This document shows, piece after piece, positions 5,211-41,746 of a stretch of 41,746 nucleotides of DNA. Under the pieces are notes generated by a model. The model was given only the letters and a program-made list of their open reading frames with translations, was not told the DNA's origin and ran no database searches. Origin of the DNA: Magnetococcales bacterium (GTDB taxonomy: Bacteria > Pseudomonadota > Magnetococcia > Magnetococcales > DC0425bin3); contig JADGBZ010000025.1 in NCBI GenBank assembly GCA_015231175.1, positions 1 to 41,746 on the forward strand, written 5' to 3'. The position numbers were made by a program, and so were the translations under genes. Position 1 is the first letter of the stretch; every line of letters begins with the position of its first letter.

Positions 5211-5368
5211 GGAAGGATGATCATGATCCCATGCACCCTTGGCGTCATCGTCTGTCCTTTGGGGCAAAAGGTCCGCTACGATGGCAAACGGAAGAATGAC
5301 CATGCTCCCATACACTCTTGGCGTCAGCGCCTGTCTTTTGGGGCAAAAGGTTCGCTACGATGGCCGGC
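5211..5368 (+). repeat. 79-bp imperfect tandem duplication of the DUF523 gene 5' end
   Basis: 5211-5289 and 5290-5368 are two copies of the same segment, with about nine mismatches over the first 73 positions. Each copy holds a Shine-Dalgarno (GGAAGG or GGAAGA), an ATG (5223 or 5302) and the first codons of a DUF523 protein (LGV-x-C-x-LGQKVRYDG). The period of 79 is not a multiple of three. The first copy therefore opens a frame that slips out of phase in the second copy and stops at 5370-5372, overlapping the true start. Confidence 0.88.
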
Positions 5369-12809: not shown

Positions 12810-12957
12810 GTAACTGTTCACCACCCGGCCACGAATCGGGGTCCAGGGGGCTGGCTCCCTGGCTTAGTCCAGGGCAGAGCCCTGGTGGGGTTCGGGGCGA
12901 AGCCCTGACAAAGGCTTTCATGTCCAGGCTTTTCTTGCAAGGGTGGTGAATAGTTAC
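12810..12957 (+). mobile_element. GTAAC-family MITE, intact copy with perfect 8-bp target duplication
   Basis: The best-preserved copy, 148 bp. The left end GTAACTGTTCACCACCC and right end GGGTGGTGAATAGTTAC are inverted complements at 16 of 17 positions. The octamer TTCCCGCG occurs directly on both sides (12802-12809 and 12958-12965). This is the signature of transposition. The interior has the perfect hairpin CCAGGGC (12869-12875), loop aga, GCCCTGG (12879-12885). It contains no coding capacity, so it must be moved by a transposase supplied from elsewhere. Confidence 0.88.
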
Positions 12958-31094: not shown

Positions 31095-31300
31095 GGGGGC
31101 GAAGCCCTGGCAAAGTCCGTCTCAAAAAGAACGATTGCAAGACTGGGATGGAGGTCCAGGAGGAAGGGCTGTGCCCTTCCTCCTGGTGGGGTTCGGGGCG
31201 AAGCCCTGATAAAAGCTTTCAAATCCAAGTTTTTTTTGCAAGGGTGGCGAAGCCCTGACAAGGGCTTTCAAATCCAGGTTTTTCTTGCAGGGGCGCAAAG
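31095..31300 (+). repeat. Composite repeat: module B hairpin plus two element tails
   Basis: A 14-bp perfect hairpin CCAGGAGGAAGGGC (31156-31169), loop tgt, GCCCTTCCTCCTGG (31173-31186), is followed by the shared ggggttcggggcgaagccctga block. Two copies of the tail (…gctttcaaatccaag…ttgcaaggg, then gggctttcaaatccagg…ttgcagggg) come next. A partial gcgaagccctggcaaag lies at 31099-31115. It has no GTAAC tips. Confidence 0.75.
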
Positions 31301-36048: not shown

Positions 36049-38040
36049 TCAACGAAAACCACCCCCGCCCACGCCACGCCTGACCCGTACCCGCAGAGTG
36101 CGGTCCTGCACCACCTCGGCTGGAATCTCCGTCAAAAACCGGGAGGGACGCCCCAAAACCAGCCGGTTGAACAGCCAGCGCCGCCTGGCATAGGTCAGGT
36201 AGAGCTTTTCTCTGGCTCGCGTCATGCCCACATAAGCCAGGCGACGCTCCTCTTCCAACCCGCCGGCACCTTCCTGGGCCAGCTTGTGGGGCAGGAGATC
36301 CTCCTCCACCCCGGCCAGAAAAACCACAGCAAACTCCAGCCCCTTGGCGGCATGCAAGGTTGAGATCAGCACCTTCTCGCCCGTGCCTGGCAGGTCGGCC
36401 TGTTCCATCATGTCGGCTACCAGGGCCGCATCTTCCAAAAATTCGGTCAGGTTTTGGCGGCGTCCCAACTCATTTTTCAACTCCTGGAGATTTTCCAATT
36501 TGTCGGCCCGACGCTCGTCGTTCTCCAGGGCGTCAACATAGCCCGATTGGAGCAGCACATGTTCCAGCATTTTGCTTGGATGGTCGTGTACAAGGCGTTG
36601 GCGGGCAGTCAGGATCAAATCCACGAATGCCTGGAGAGGCTTTTTGGTTCGCGTCGTCAGCGTGCCGCCTTGCTCCAGCAGGTGGATGGCCGCGTCCAAA
36701 CAGGATCCCCCCTGCTCCCTGGCCGCAGCTTGAATGGTCTCCAGGGCAACGCTCCCCAGACCCCGGGGGGGCACATTGAGAATCCGCTCGAAGGCCAGAT
36801 TGTCCCTGCTGGAGTGGACCAGCCGTAAATAGGCCATGGCATCCTTCACCTCGGCCCGATCCATGAAACGCAGCCCCCCGACAATGTGATAGGGGATCGT
36901 GCGCCGCAGCAACGCCTCCTCCATGGCCCGGGTCTGGTGGCTGGTGCGCACCAGAATGGCGTACTGGTTGTACGCCCCGTCCTGTGCCTGACCATGAATT
37001 TCGTCAGCAACGAAACGTGCTTCGTCTTCGCCATCTTCGGCCACATACTTGACCACTTTGGCGCCATCAGCACCGGCTGTCCAAAGGCTTTTGACCATGC
37101 GCCCGCGATTGTTGCCGATCAGGGAAGCGGCAGCCTGCAAGATAAATCCGGTGGAACGATAATTTTGTTCCAGTCGGATGACGCGGGTTTCAGGATAATC
37201 CTCACTGAAGCGCAAAATGTTATCCAGGCGCGCTCCCCGCCAGCTATAGATGGATTGGTCGTCATCACCCACCACGCATAAATTGCGATGTTGGGCGGAC
37301 AACTGCATCAGCCAACGATACTGCACCAGGTTGGTATCCTGGTATTCATCGACCAAAACCTGGCGGAAGCGGGTCTGGTAGGTTTCGAGGATGGTCGGTT
37401 CCCGTTGCCACAACACCAGACAGTTACGCAGCAAATCCCCAAAGTCCATGCAGTTGGTGTTGCGCAGCGCATCCTGGTAGCCCTGAAAAAAAGAACGCAC
37501 CGCATCCCGATCACGCGGATTGCGCACATGTTCTTCGCCGATTTCATCGGGCCCCAGGGCGTCGTCCTTCCAGCGTGAGAATGCATTGGCGAGCCGGTCA
37601 TGGGTCCAATAGCTGCTTTTGTAATCCATCTGTTCCGCCAACGTCTTGATCAGACGTTTCTGGTCCGCCAGGTCCAGGATGGTAAAGTCGCTATTGAACC
37701 CGAGAATTTCAGCATGTTTGCGCAGAATCCGCGCCGACAGGGCATGAAAGGTTCCGATCCACAATCGTCCGCCGTGCAACGGACCCCATTCGGCCAGTAG
37801 TTGCCCCACCCGGTCCCGCATCTGACGGGCCGCTTTGTTGGTAAAGGTGACTGCCAAAATCTCCTCGGGGCGACACGCCCCATCCAGCACCAGCCAGGCA
37901 AGGCGGCGGGTCAACACCCGGGTCTTGCCCGAACCGGCGCCGGCCAAGATCATCAGAGGGCCTTCCCGAACCAGGACCGCCTCGCGTTGGGGTGGGTTGA
38001 GATCGGTCAAGAGAGGGGATTCGGCGAGGGAGTCATTCAT
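36049..38040 (-). CDS. Rep/UvrD-type superfamily 1A DNA helicase
   Basis: A 663-residue ATP-dependent 3'-5' helicase. All SF1A motifs are seen: LNPPQREAV (Q motif), AGAGSGKTRVL (Walker A), AVTFTNKAARQM, VDEYQDTN (Walker B), VVGDDDQSIYSWRGA, VIRLEQNYRST, STLHAAKGLEF and YVGMTRAREKL. The length and GDDDQSIYSWRGA are closest to Rep rather than the longer UvrD; PcrA-like function is possible. ATG 38040 is chosen because AGAGGA lies 7 nt upstream; ATG 38061 is in frame. The short C-terminus (RVRRGVGGGGFR) ends 9 bp from a repeat. Inverted copies of one repeat module flank the gene. Confidence 0.9.
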   Translation of the reverse strand: MNDSLAESPLLTDLNPPQREAVLVREGPLMILAGAGSGKTRVLTRRLAWLVLDGACRPEEILAVTFTNKAARQMRDRVGQLLAEWGPLHGGRLWIGTFHALSARILRKHAEILGFNSDFTILDLADQKRLIKTLAEQMDYKSSYWTHDRLANAFSRWKDDALGPDEIGEEHVRNPRDRDAVRSFFQGYQDALRNTNCMDFGDLLRNCLVLWQREPTILETYQTRFRQVLVDEYQDTNLVQYRWLMQLSAQHRNLCVVGDDDQSIYSWRGARLDNILRFSEDYPETRVIRLEQNYRSTGFILQAAASLIGNNRGRMVKSLWTAGADGAKVVKYVAEDGEDEARFVADEIHGQAQDGAYNQYAILVRTSHQTRAMEEALLRRTIPYHIVGGLRFMDRAEVKDAMAYLRLVHSSRDNLAFERILNVPPRGLGSVALETIQAAAREQGGSCLDAAIHLLEQGGTLTTRTKKPLQAFVDLILTARQRLVHDHPSKMLEHVLLQSGYVDALENDERRADKLENLQELKNELGRRQNLTEFLEDAALVADMMEQADLPGTGEKVLISTLHAAKGLEFAVVFLAGVEEDLLPHKLAQEGAGGLEEERRLAYVGMTRAREKLYLTYARRRWLFNRLVLGRPSRFLTEIPAEVVQDRTLRVRVRRGVGGGGFR

Positions 38041-38070
38041 GCAAGCATCCTCTGAAAGCAAAAATTTTCA

Positions 38071-38282
38071 GGAACTATTCACCACCTGGCAACGAATCGG
38101 GGTCCAGGGGGCTGGCTCCCTGGCTTGGTCCAGGGCAGCGCCCTGGTGGGGTTCGGGGCGAAGCCCTGATAAAGGCTTCCCTATCCAGGCTTTTCTTGAA
38201 AGGGTACTGAAAAGGGTGCTGAAAAGGGTGCTGAATGGTTACCCCAATCCGGGCTTTTCTTGCAAGGGTGCTGAATGGTTAC
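38071..38282 (+). mobile_element. GTAAC-family MITE, 212-bp copy with duplicated right end and target duplication
   Basis: The left end is GGAACTATTCACCACCT and the right end GGGTGCTGAATGGTTAC. Flanking octamers AATTTTCA (38063-38070) and AATTTTCG (38283-38290) match at 7 of 8, as expected for an 8-bp target duplication. The interior has an intact CCAGGGC-agc-GCCCTGG hairpin. The right end occurs twice (ending at 38242 and 38282), with an aaagggt(g/a)ctg triplet run just before the first, so the element has internal end duplications. Confidence 0.85.
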
Positions 38283-38534
38283 AATTTTCGGTCATTGTTC
38301 GGCTTGAAAACCGGGATGGAGGTTCGCTGTGGCGTGGGTCCAGGAACATTTTCTTGCGCGTCAGGTGCAGTAAGGCTGGCCAGCCACCGGGTGGCGAATT
38401 CTTGGAGGGGAGGGGGAGCGACTCCGAACTTTGAACGTGGGACAGTGACACAACAGGCCGCAGGTCGCAAGGTTGAAGGGATTGAGCCAGGGCAAGCGCA
38501 TGTGAAATGGGCATATCCAAAGCCATGATTGTTT
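38283..38534. other. Gene-free spacer, partly repeated elsewhere
   Basis: No gene is credible here. 38489-38534 (…gggcaagcgcatgtgaaatgggcatatccaaagcc) matches 13078-13117 at the edge of another core repeat, so it is part of a second dispersed sequence. Short open frames through it lack family resemblance. Confidence 0.5.
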
Positions 38535-38671
38535 TTTGGAATTGGGGTCCAGAGGGTTGGCTCCCTTGCGGGTCAAGGGCAGCGCCCTTACGGGGTCCGG
38601 GGCGGAGCCCCGTTTTGTTTTTGTACGCCCCCCTTCTCCCAGGCCTTTTTTGCGCTGTTTGCAAAAAAGGC
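38535..38671 (+). repeat. Module C repeat (plus copy)
   Basis: The core (ggggtccagagggttggctccc), the hairpin CAAGGGC-agc-GCCCTT (38574-38589), the ggggtccggggcggagccccg block and the GGCCTTTTTTGC/GCAAAAAAGGCC stem (about 38641-38671) occur in the same order as the reverse copy at 35881-36040. Together they form inverted repeats around the helicase gene. Confidence 0.82.
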
Positions 38672-38749
38672 CCAAGATGCGAACACATTGCAGATTTTGC
38701 GAAAATAATCGTAAAAGATAATGGTCCGTACTTTCCGCTGGCTTTTTTT

Positions 38750-39199
38750 GGGGCGCTGCCCCAAACCCCGCCAGGAGGAAGGGCGCAGCCCTTCCTCCTG
38801 GACCTCCATCCCAGTCTTTTAAACGATTTTTTTTGGGGCGCTGCCCCAAACCCCGCCAGGAGGAAGGGCGCAGCCCTTCCTCCTGGACCTCCATCCCAGT
38901 TTTTTGGACGTTTTTTTGGGGCTCCGCCCCAAACCCCGCCAGGAGGAAGGGCGCAGCCCTTCCTCCTGGACCTCCATCCCAGTTTTTTGGACGTTTTTTT
39001 GGGGCTCCGCCCCAAACCCCGCCAGGAGGAAGGGCGCAGCCCTTCCTCCTGGACCTCCATCCCAGTTTTTTGGACGTTTTTTCGGGGCTCTGCCCCGGAC
39101 CCCGCCAGGAGGAAGGGCGCAGCCCTTCCTCCTGGACCTCCATCCCAGTTTTTTAATCGTTTTTTCGGGGCTCTGCCCTTCCTCCTGAACCTCCATCCC
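38750..39199 (+). repeat. Module B tandem array: five full 83-85 bp units plus a truncated sixth
   Basis: Units begin (gggg-c) at 38750, 38835, 38918, 39001, 39084 and 39167. The first two periods are 85 and 83, the rest exactly 83. Each full unit holds GGGGC…GCCCC, then the 14-bp stem CCAGGAGGAAGGGC/GCCCTTCCTCCTGG with loop gca (first unit 38771-38801), then gacctccatcccag and a T-rich spacer. The sixth unit has lost the hairpin and ends just before the comEC ribosome site. The array has no stop codon in the comEC frame. Confidence 0.93.
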
Positions 39200-39211
39200 G
39201 ACGAGGATCAC

Positions 39212-41521
39212 ATGGGGCTGTTGGTCATGGCAATGATCGGGGGGATCATCCTGTGTACCCACACCCCCCTGGCACAAAATGATCTGCATTGGCTCCAAGT
39301 CCTCATCGGCCTGGCCACCTGGCTGACCTGGCTGGGTTCACCGGCAGGCCGCACCCGCTGGTTGAGGCTCCTCGGCGGGCTTTTTCTGGGGGTCGTGGCG
39401 GCCAACTGGGAAGACTGGCAGGCCTGCAACCCACCCCTGCTGCTGCCCGAAGGGAAAAAAGGCAAGGAATTTACCGCCATGGTGGTCGATCGCAATGACC
39501 GCGACGACTCGATCCAACTGATCCTGGAGGATTTTGTCTGGCAGCCGGAACAAACAGAGTTTGCCGGGCAAATCCAGTTGTCCATTTATGGCCACGACGC
39601 CGACGCCGAACCAGGAGATCGGATCGCCGGCAAGGCCGTGCTCCACCCCGTCGAGGATTATCGGGTGCCAGGCGTATTCTCCTACGCCGACATGCTGCGG
39701 CGGCAAGGGGTGAAGGCCAACGGCTCCGCCCGGGATCCGCCCCAGGTGGTGGAACAAACGTCCCAGTGGCGCATCAATCGTTTGCGCCAACGGATTTCGG
39801 CCTGGGTGCAGCGCCACATCGCGCCCCGGCAGCAGGGCCTGGTTGAAGGGATTCTGGTGGGCAAGCGCGGGCGTATCACGGCGGCCCAAAACGAAAACAT
39901 GCGTAGCGCCGGCCTGATCCACCTGGTGGCCATCTCGGGTTCCAATCTGGGCCTGGTGGCCGGGTGGGCGTTTTTGTTCTTCCGCCGGCTGTTGGTCATG
40001 CTGACGCCGGTTTCACGACGCTGGGATGTGAAACGGTTGGCGGCGTTGGCGGCCATGCTCTTCATGCTGGGCTATGCCTCCCTGGCGGGATGGTCCGTGG
40101 CCACGCAAAGGGCAGCCATCATGATCACCCTGTATCTGCTCTCCGTCGCCGTGGAGCGGGGCAACCAGATGTGGCGCGCCCTGGGCATGTCGGCCATATT
40201 GATTTTATTTTTTCAACCCAATCAATTGTTTCAGGCTGGATTTCAACTCTCGTTTCTCGCCGTGGCCACCCTGATCGCCCTGGGCGACATGGATTTTGCC
40301 CCCGACTGGCGGGGCCGCATGCGGGCCATGTCGCTCTCCACGATCACCATTGGCGTCGTGCTGACCCCGGTGACCGCCTACCATTTTCATCAGGGATCGC
40401 CCTACAGCATTCTGGCCAATATTCCTGCCATTCCCTGGGTGGGCATCGTCTCCGTGCCCCTGGGCATGATCGGCCTCATGGTGTTGCCCTGGTCGGAAAC
40501 ATGGGGTGGCGTCGTTCTCTCCCTCATGGGGTGGAGCCTGGAGATTTTTGATCGATGGGCCGCCTGGATCAGCCATCTGCCGGGGGCTTGGACACGTTTT
40601 CCCGGTCCCACGTTGCCGGGTTTTGCCCTCATGGTGCTGGCGGGGGTGGGATGGCTCGCCTGGCGGCGCTTTTGGCCCCGGGCGGCTTGCCTTTGTGTGG
40701 CCGCCTGTGCCTGGTTCTGGCCCCATCCCGCTCCGCCCCTGGGATATCTGCAACTCTCCGTCCTGGATGTGCGGCAGGGGCAAAGTGTGTTGTTGCACGC
40801 GCCGACGGGGGATTGGTCGGTGATCGATGCGGGGGGGCCGGTCTCCCCTCGTTTCAATATTGGCGAGAGCGTGATTTCGGCCAACCTGTGGTATCAGGGG
40901 GTGGGCAAATTGGCACGCATCGTGTTGAGTCACCCGGACCTGGACCATATCTCCGGCGCTGCACAACTCCTGCGCAATTTTCCCACCGGGGAACTCTGGT
41001 TGGGGTTCTTTCCACAGGAGGAGGAGAGCCATGCCCAGTACAAACAAATCATCGCCATGGCCCAGCGGCAGGGGACGCTCATCCGGCGTTTTCAGGATGG
41101 GACAACGATCCATGCCGAGGGGTTGGATTTTCACATTCTGCCCCCGTTTCCGTTGCGGGGAAAAGAGAATGATCGCTCCCTGGTTTTGGAGGTGACCCAT
41201 GACACCCGGCGTTTTTTATTTCCGGGGGATGTGCAGCGCACCGGGGAGCGTTGGTTGGCCAGGAGCGGTCAATTGGCGCCGGTGACGCTGGTGGTGGCGC
41301 CCCACCATGGCAGTGCTGGTTCCAGCAGCCCGATTTTTGTTCAGGCGCTTCATCCCGAGCATGTGGTTTTCAGCGTAGGGGCGAGGAATCGTTATGGCTT
41401 TCCCAAGCCGGCCAGTGTGGCGCGGTGGGCGGCCAGTGGGGCCAGGTTGTGGCGGACGGACCAGGATGGAACGGTTATGTTTCGTTCCGATGGTCATCAT
41501 CTTGAGCGCGTAGGTGACTGA
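39212..41521 (+). CDS. comEC: ComEC/Rec2 family DNA-uptake channel
   Basis: A 769-residue inner-membrane protein thought to form the pore for single-stranded DNA during natural transformation. The order is complete: N-terminal TMs, a DUF4131-like soluble region (FTAMVVDRNDRDDSIQLILEDF), and the competence core (GLVEGILVGKRGRI; GLIHLVAISGSNLGLVAG; LAGWSVATQRAAIM; FQAGFQLSFLAV). A C-terminal metallo-beta-lactamase domain follows (SVLDVRQGQSVLL; LSHPDLDHISG; FPGDVQ; APHHGS). ATG 39212 is chosen for GAGG 5 nt upstream. The frame stays open for another 705 nt upstream through the repeat array, but that part is repeat translation and should not be annotated. Confidence 0.92.
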   Translation: MGLLVMAMIGGIILCTHTPLAQNDLHWLQVLIGLATWLTWLGSPAGRTRWLRLLGGLFLGVVAANWEDWQACNPPLLLPEGKKGKEFTAMVVDRNDRDDSIQLILEDFVWQPEQTEFAGQIQLSIYGHDADAEPGDRIAGKAVLHPVEDYRVPGVFSYADMLRRQGVKANGSARDPPQVVEQTSQWRINRLRQRISAWVQRHIAPRQQGLVEGILVGKRGRITAAQNENMRSAGLIHLVAISGSNLGLVAGWAFLFFRRLLVMLTPVSRRWDVKRLAALAAMLFMLGYASLAGWSVATQRAAIMITLYLLSVAVERGNQMWRALGMSAILILFFQPNQLFQAGFQLSFLAVATLIALGDMDFAPDWRGRMRAMSLSTITIGVVLTPVTAYHFHQGSPYSILANIPAIPWVGIVSVPLGMIGLMVLPWSETWGGVVLSLMGWSLEIFDRWAAWISHLPGAWTRFPGPTLPGFALMVLAGVGWLAWRRFWPRAACLCVAACAWFWPHPAPPLGYLQLSVLDVRQGQSVLLHAPTGDWSVIDAGGPVSPRFNIGESVISANLWYQGVGKLARIVLSHPDLDHISGAAQLLRNFPTGELWLGFFPQEEESHAQYKQIIAMAQRQGTLIRRFQDGTTIHAEGLDFHILPPFPLRGKENDRSLVLEVTHDTRRFLFPGDVQRTGERWLARSGQLAPVTLVVAPHHGSAGSSSPIFVQALHPEHVVFSVGARNRYGFPKPASVARWAASGARLWRTDQDGTVMFRSDGHHLERVGD

Positions 41522-41746
41522 AGCGAAAAAAAACGATTGAAAAACTGGAATGGAGGTCCAGGAGGAAGGGCTGTGCCCTTCCTCCTGGTGGGTTCGGGGC
41601 GAAGCCCTGACAAAGGCTTTCATATCCAACAAAGGCTTTCATATCCAACAAAGGCTTTCATATCCAAGATTTTCGCGAAATGGGGTCCAGGGGGCTGGCT
41701 CCCTTGCGGGTCAAGGGCAGCGCCCTTGCGGGTCAAGGGCAGCGCC
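41522..41746 (+). repeat. Composite repeat region downstream of comEC
   Basis: It contains a module B hairpin (tccaggaggaagggctgtgcccttcctcctgg), the gttcggggcgaagccctga block, a 19-bp unit (acaaaggctttcatatcca) present three times in tandem at 41610-41666, and a module C core. The perfect hairpin CAAGGGC (41712-41718), loop agc, GCCCTTG (41722-41728) repeats at the window edge. The sequence is cut by the end of the window. Confidence 0.85.

Follow-up and report, generated by a model that had tools for sequence, protein, structure and literature searches.

A hairpin array upstream of comEC in a Magnetococcales genome: a probable tandem amplification of a dispersed IS66-type MITE core

The analysis of a 41,746-nucleotide stretch of Magnetococcales DNA (all of it referred to below as the window) revealed an array of hairpins directly upstream of the DNA-uptake gene comEC. 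This array probably arose by tandem multiplication of the two-hairpin core of a dispersed IS66-type miniature inverted-repeat transposable element (MITE), most likely moved in trans, which landed in front of the gene. What appeared to be a gene-specific regulatory array becomes a case of a genome-wide mobile repeat: a MITE family of the IS66 type that is abundant in this bacterial order and is associated with gene-order breaks, contig ends and spurious gene extensions.

A tandem repeat search of the window located the array at 38743-39178, with a period of 83, 5.2 copies and 96% matches. The whole array occupies 38743-39199 and consists of five complete 83-bp units, whose starts are spaced 85, 83, 83 and 83 bp apart, and a truncated sixth (Table 1). 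Each complete unit contains two hairpins with loops of 3, hairpin A of 8 bp and hairpin B of 14 bp, and the 14-bp stem of the latter, CCAGGAGGAAGGGC/GCCCTTCCTCCTGG, is perfect in all five. The earlier note had placed the array at 38750-39211 and described six unit starts with 14-bp stems at 83-85 bp spacing. The array is present with its true start a few bases earlier, and the description holds for five units; at the sixth start the 14-bp stem is missing: this is a truncated remnant, in which the right half of the large hairpin follows directly on the small one. The note's distance of 12 bp between the array and comEC was exact, the final repeat letters being at 39199 and the ATG at 39212. Covariation was analyzed in 31 aligned copies, 30 from the genome of the window (G000) and one from its same-genus relative G002. 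Among the 30 distinct rows of this alignment the third pair of hairpin A covaries (U-A in 16, C-G in 11), and hairpin B is 98.8% paired. Other tandem repeats of the window are a 79-bp repeat (1.9 copies) at 5211-5364 and 19-bp and 22-bp repeats at 41610-41746, directly beyond the inverted unit after comEC and up to the contig end.

Table 1. Positions in the window of the array, related elements and neighbouring genes
Feature	Position	Strand	Evidence
Complete 148-bp MITE, same end type, different hairpin core, perfect 8-bp duplication TTCCCGCG	12810..12957	.	end scan
Single unit at another synteny break versus G002	31132..31214	-	covariance model + synteny
UvrD/PcrA-type helicase, divergent comEC neighbour here, not in G001 or G002	36049..38061	-	Pfam + synteny
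MITE-like element beside uvrD-type gene, GTAAC-type ends, flanks AATTTTCA/AATTTTCG (7 of 8)	38071..38282	.	end scan
Left module of composite dispersed repeat	38488..38742	+	region comparison
Unit 1 (83 bp + 2): hairpin A, hairpin B, tail	38743..38827	+	tandem repeat + covariance model
Unit 2	38828..38910	+	covariance model
Unit 3, hairpins identical to unit 4	38911..38993	+	covariance model
Unit 4	38994..39076	+	covariance model
Unit 5	39077..39159	+	covariance model
Truncated sixth unit, without 14-bp stem	39160..39199	+	sequence + BLAST
comEC (Competence PF03772, DUF4131, Lactamase_B)	39212..41521	+	Pfam
Single unit, inverted versus array, 12 bp past comEC stop	41534..41615	-	covariance model

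A covariance search of the 3.81-Mb G000 genome produced at least 147 matches to the unit on 73 contigs, and BLAST with the unit produced at least 115 rows on both strands; both numbers are lower bounds because only part of the candidates was scored (the best 150 of 4244 and 40 of 219, respectively). The 147 matches form 94 single, 20 double, two four-unit and one five-unit direct tandem clusters, and the sole cluster of five is the comEC array. The two four-unit clusters have periods of 76 and 111. Such differences in array period (76, 83-85, 111 and others) are consistent with local amplification. The model also matched 46 of the 61 genomes searched, G000 included: 46 of the 48 belonging to the same order and none of the 13 from the rest of the phylum.

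A stringent pattern of the whole unit found no match in named genomes. The looser left-half pattern GGGGCnnnGCCCCrAACCCCrCCAGG was found at at least 120 loci (L177-L296) in many phyla, the hosts among the matches listed being Clostridia, Synergistaceae, Acetobacteraceae, Puniceicoccales and others, and named Magnetococcales MAGs too. Among the matches listed, none of these loci carries the MITE end motif described below at up to 2 mismatches, and the pattern is therefore a hairpin motif of a general kind that does not point to relatives. No paper was found to contain the motif of the unit as a literal string. The literature search likewise yielded no paper joining magnetococci with miniature inverted-repeat elements, or Magnetospirillum with hairpin interspersed repeats, which does not in itself make IS66 MITEs unreported.

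The surroundings of the unit were analyzed in 60 stretches around copies together with the window (450 kb), using genes from a home-made codon-usage caller. A fuzzy pattern found 95 copies in these 61 sources, in 77 clusters. Only two clusters overlap with a called gene. Tandem genes flank 38 clusters, convergent genes 19 and divergent genes nine, the comEC array being one of the last, and another nine are without two flanks. The tail of the unit is nearer to a gene than its head in 57 of 66 clusters (median 18 versus 142 bp), and it faces a gene 3' end in 41 of 66. This placement could be explained by intrinsic transcription terminators positioned at gene ends. However, a T run directly after either stem was not found, and the terminator scan detected none in the array and three in the region against 3.7 expected; we rejected this explanation as highly improbable. 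An Rfam RNA family was also rejected as an identity for the repeat, the search of the window having given no match over gathering score.

The complete form of the element has terminal inverted repeats of about 17 bp starting GTAAC (GTAACYATTCAG..) and 8-bp target duplications. The end motif occurs at 649 sites in G000 and at one in the reversed control. Adjacent in-facing end pairs 100-300 bp apart were counted, and this count supersedes an earlier scan whose pairs overlap. Ten pairs were obtained in the G002 regions, seven with at least 7 of 8 flank matches and five perfect (none after permutation), and 30 in the G000 regions, 12 with at least 7 of 8 and eight perfect (permuted mean 0.075). 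Modal element lengths are 147-148 bp in G000 and mostly 154-159 bp in G002. In the earlier scan of overlapping pairs, the ends enclosed the two-hairpin core in 9 of 9 G002 pairs and in 0 of 36 G000 pairs, which enclose other hairpin cores instead. Both ends (at most 4 mismatches) were found around none of the 77 unit clusters in G000; half-elements are present, with a left end within 170 bp in 17 clusters and a right end within 90 bp in five (controls 0 and 0). The MITE reading of the 83-bp unit therefore rests on G002 and on the half-elements here. For the composite copy at comEC, a search of the flanks at up to 4 mismatches did not find the terminal end motif. Two other elements of the window have such ends (Table 1). 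In the one at 38071-38282, the outer pairing passes over a nearer right end at 38242 with a flank match of 2 of 8. A 12-bp tandem repeat, AAAGGGTGCTGA in three copies at 38199-38282, overlaps its right terminal repeat, and there are two candidate ends.

Overall, these elements are non-coding and shorter than about 300 bp, their target duplication has a fixed length of 8 bp, and terminal inverted repeats bound both the G002 elements with the two-hairpin core and a sister core type in G000. Insertion is polymorphic between relatives: an ilvN-ilvC-like gap (genes read by eye) is 215 bp long with an element in G002 and 35 bp without it in G000, and the G002 copy has inverted edges GTAACCATTCAG../..CTGAATAGTTGC and flanks GACAAAAA/GACAAATA. 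Four filled/empty sites were compared, with partial alignments around two besides this one and L334/L102. At the latter (L334 2894-3112, L102 5406-5519), G002 has the two-hairpin unit and G000 another type of hairpin element in one and the same gene gap. This site is thus not empty, and it suggests a reused site or module exchange. Among 12 orthologous-like flanking genes, only one has a copy at the same gene end in G000, and that copy differs in orientation and distance.

Ends starting GTAAGCG with 8-bp repeats are described for IS66 in one paper (PMC11946415), and another (PMC12888890) gives an end starting GTAACCG for an IS66 element. The elements analyzed here resemble IS66-mobilised MITEs in that they are short and non-coding, have complete forms of modal length 147-158 bp, GTAA-starting inverted ends and 8-bp duplications, and share their ends with a full-length IS66-family element of the order. 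They differ in having a core of two near-perfect hairpins that can be tandemly amplified, in the loss of most ends around the 83-bp copies in their own genome, and in the end-matched IS, which is a single-gene 1.74-kb element. IS66 transposases are present in 37 of the 61 genomes. In two other genomes of the order (L355 and L358) a protein named IS66 family transposase by NCBIfam (NF033517) is encoded between the same ends, in elements of 1737 bp (flanks 7/8) and 1740 bp (flanks 8/8); these are autonomous elements combining the ends with an IS66 transposase. Their close homologues L356 and L357 (80-87% identical) have one end each. Among the 14 IS66 loci inspected, the end motif (at most 2 mismatches) lies beside the gene in only four and on both sides in two. 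A matching transposase was not found in G000, whose two IS66 genes (on C1 and, as a fragment, on C27) are only 24-31% identical to the end-matched ones, and matched ends with a duplication were not found for either; the gene on C1 was rejected as a partner, as its best end pair is without duplication. G002 gave no IS66 match, though it carries complete elements. An IS66 transposase acting in trans is the most likely mover of the element.

We also considered a REP/BIME family of the RAYT type, mobilised by a Y1 transposase, since the palindromic repeats are dispersed and often beside gene 3' ends, and the genome has one Y1_Tnp match. REP/BIME families tagged GTAG or CGTC (PMC3733652, PMC2817692) are similarly dispersed intergenic palindromes lying mainly between unidirectional and convergent genes; the unit here differs in having no conserved tag, no cognate RAYT that we could find, and inverted ends with 8-bp duplications. 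Only 4 of 94 copies have GTRG or CGTC 8 nt or less from the stem, a different palindrome surrounds the Y1 region, and no cognate RAYT flanked by the repeat was found; such an origin is extremely doubtful and was rejected. The Y1 transposase domain itself (L072, contig C36 of G000) has its own palindrome, GGGAGCGCGGGCGTCCCGCCCGC, and is apparently in or beside a long methyltransferase-like frame (by eye). Pneumococcal BOX elements, as described in PMC3049150, are likewise modular dispersed repeats, mostly intergenic, in which one module forms a variable tandem array; they can create open frames and were first noted near competence genes. BOX modules are reported there to have stimulatory or inhibitory effects on adjacent genes. 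The present repeat differs in module sequences, ends and host, and the likeness, drawn from description, is one of analogy only.

The segment 38488-38919 of the window shares 93% identity with a composite copy on contig C10 (L098 2746-3178), which has two units against five at comEC; 38488-38676 is also 91% identical to L125. Unit number thus changes between paralogues, and the hairpin array proposed in the earlier note, with its changeable copy number, is borne out.

The array is absent from the comEC locus of both same-genus relatives, G001 and G002. When 30 comEC loci were searched with the model, only L053, besides the window's own, had full-length matches of the wider class upstream, and L059 had one weak match at a contig end; no conserved comEC leader element was found in the relatives. 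In G001 and G002 the divergent neighbour of comEC is a small gene; its homologue, together with the upstream DNA, is found at 33.8-34.35 kb of the window, with weaker similarity beyond. A block with a CZB-domain gene and the UvrD-type helicase intervenes between comEC and the small-gene homologue in G000; homologues were located on other contigs, that of the helicase in G002 and that of the CZB-domain gene in G001. As this block intervenes only in G000, the array sits at a junction seen only here, which is either a rearrangement or an assembly join. The adjacency of array, comEC and uvrD could in part be an artefact of short-read assembly at repeats, even though the repeat family is real. Consistent with this, a known contig end is at most 30 bp away from 21 of the 147 copies (lengths are unknown for 18 contigs), comEC is parted from its G001/G002 neighbour only in G000, and mapped adjacencies versus G002 are broken in 4 of 4 cases with an element and 1 of 14 without (p 0.0016), a comparison confounded by gap length, with 12 of 30 adjacencies unmapped, in which misassembly at repeats in either genome gives the same pattern. 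However, a real rearrangement predicts that pattern too, the units differ from each other, so that the path is partly resolvable, and the gap includes about 38285-38487, which has no repeat matches in the 60 regions compared. An artefact of this kind is unlikely.

In the mechanism that we favour, a dispersed non-coding MITE-like element would have been mobilised in trans, most likely by an IS66-family transposase. The composite copy (38488-39199) would have come to lie directly upstream of comEC, without its right end, at the junction specific to its own genome, and the core, at first of one or two units, would then have expanded to five and a half, most likely through replication slippage or unequal recombination at the hairpins.

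The earlier note also linked the array specifically to comEC expression. A dedicated array of this kind, with hairpins of the 5' leader attenuating or stabilising the transcript and unit number tuning expression, would be in keeping with its end so close to the start codon and with the RNA fold of the region, which is far stabler than its shuffles (z -13.7). One predicted fold pairs CCTC of the remnant with GAGG before the ATG; as a fold hiding the comEC ribosome site it was unconvincing (z -1.5, and +0.5 in a second stretch). Against the link are the dispersal of the unit, the absence of the array at comEC in the same-genus relatives and its rarity among the 30 loci. A consensus scan of 37900-39400 found no + strand promoter, which is weak evidence either way. 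We consider dedicated regulation very unlikely. Co-option of the MITE core as an expandable comEC leader, in which unit gain and loss would tune DNA uptake between cells, is likewise very unlikely. The repeat is scattered genome-wide and looks like a small mobile-element core, so the array is most likely an accident of landing and no dedicated comEC switch; an effect on comEC is possible and could be accidental, nothing supports a comEC role, and any effect is most likely incidental. The spurious open frame predicted together with the array is real: the reading frame extends uninterrupted from 38507, through comEC, to 41521, and automatic annotation could otherwise extend ComEC by 235 residues of repeat sequence. 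In G002, comEC contains a run of near-identical tandem repeats (L044 1340-1560) within its coding region.
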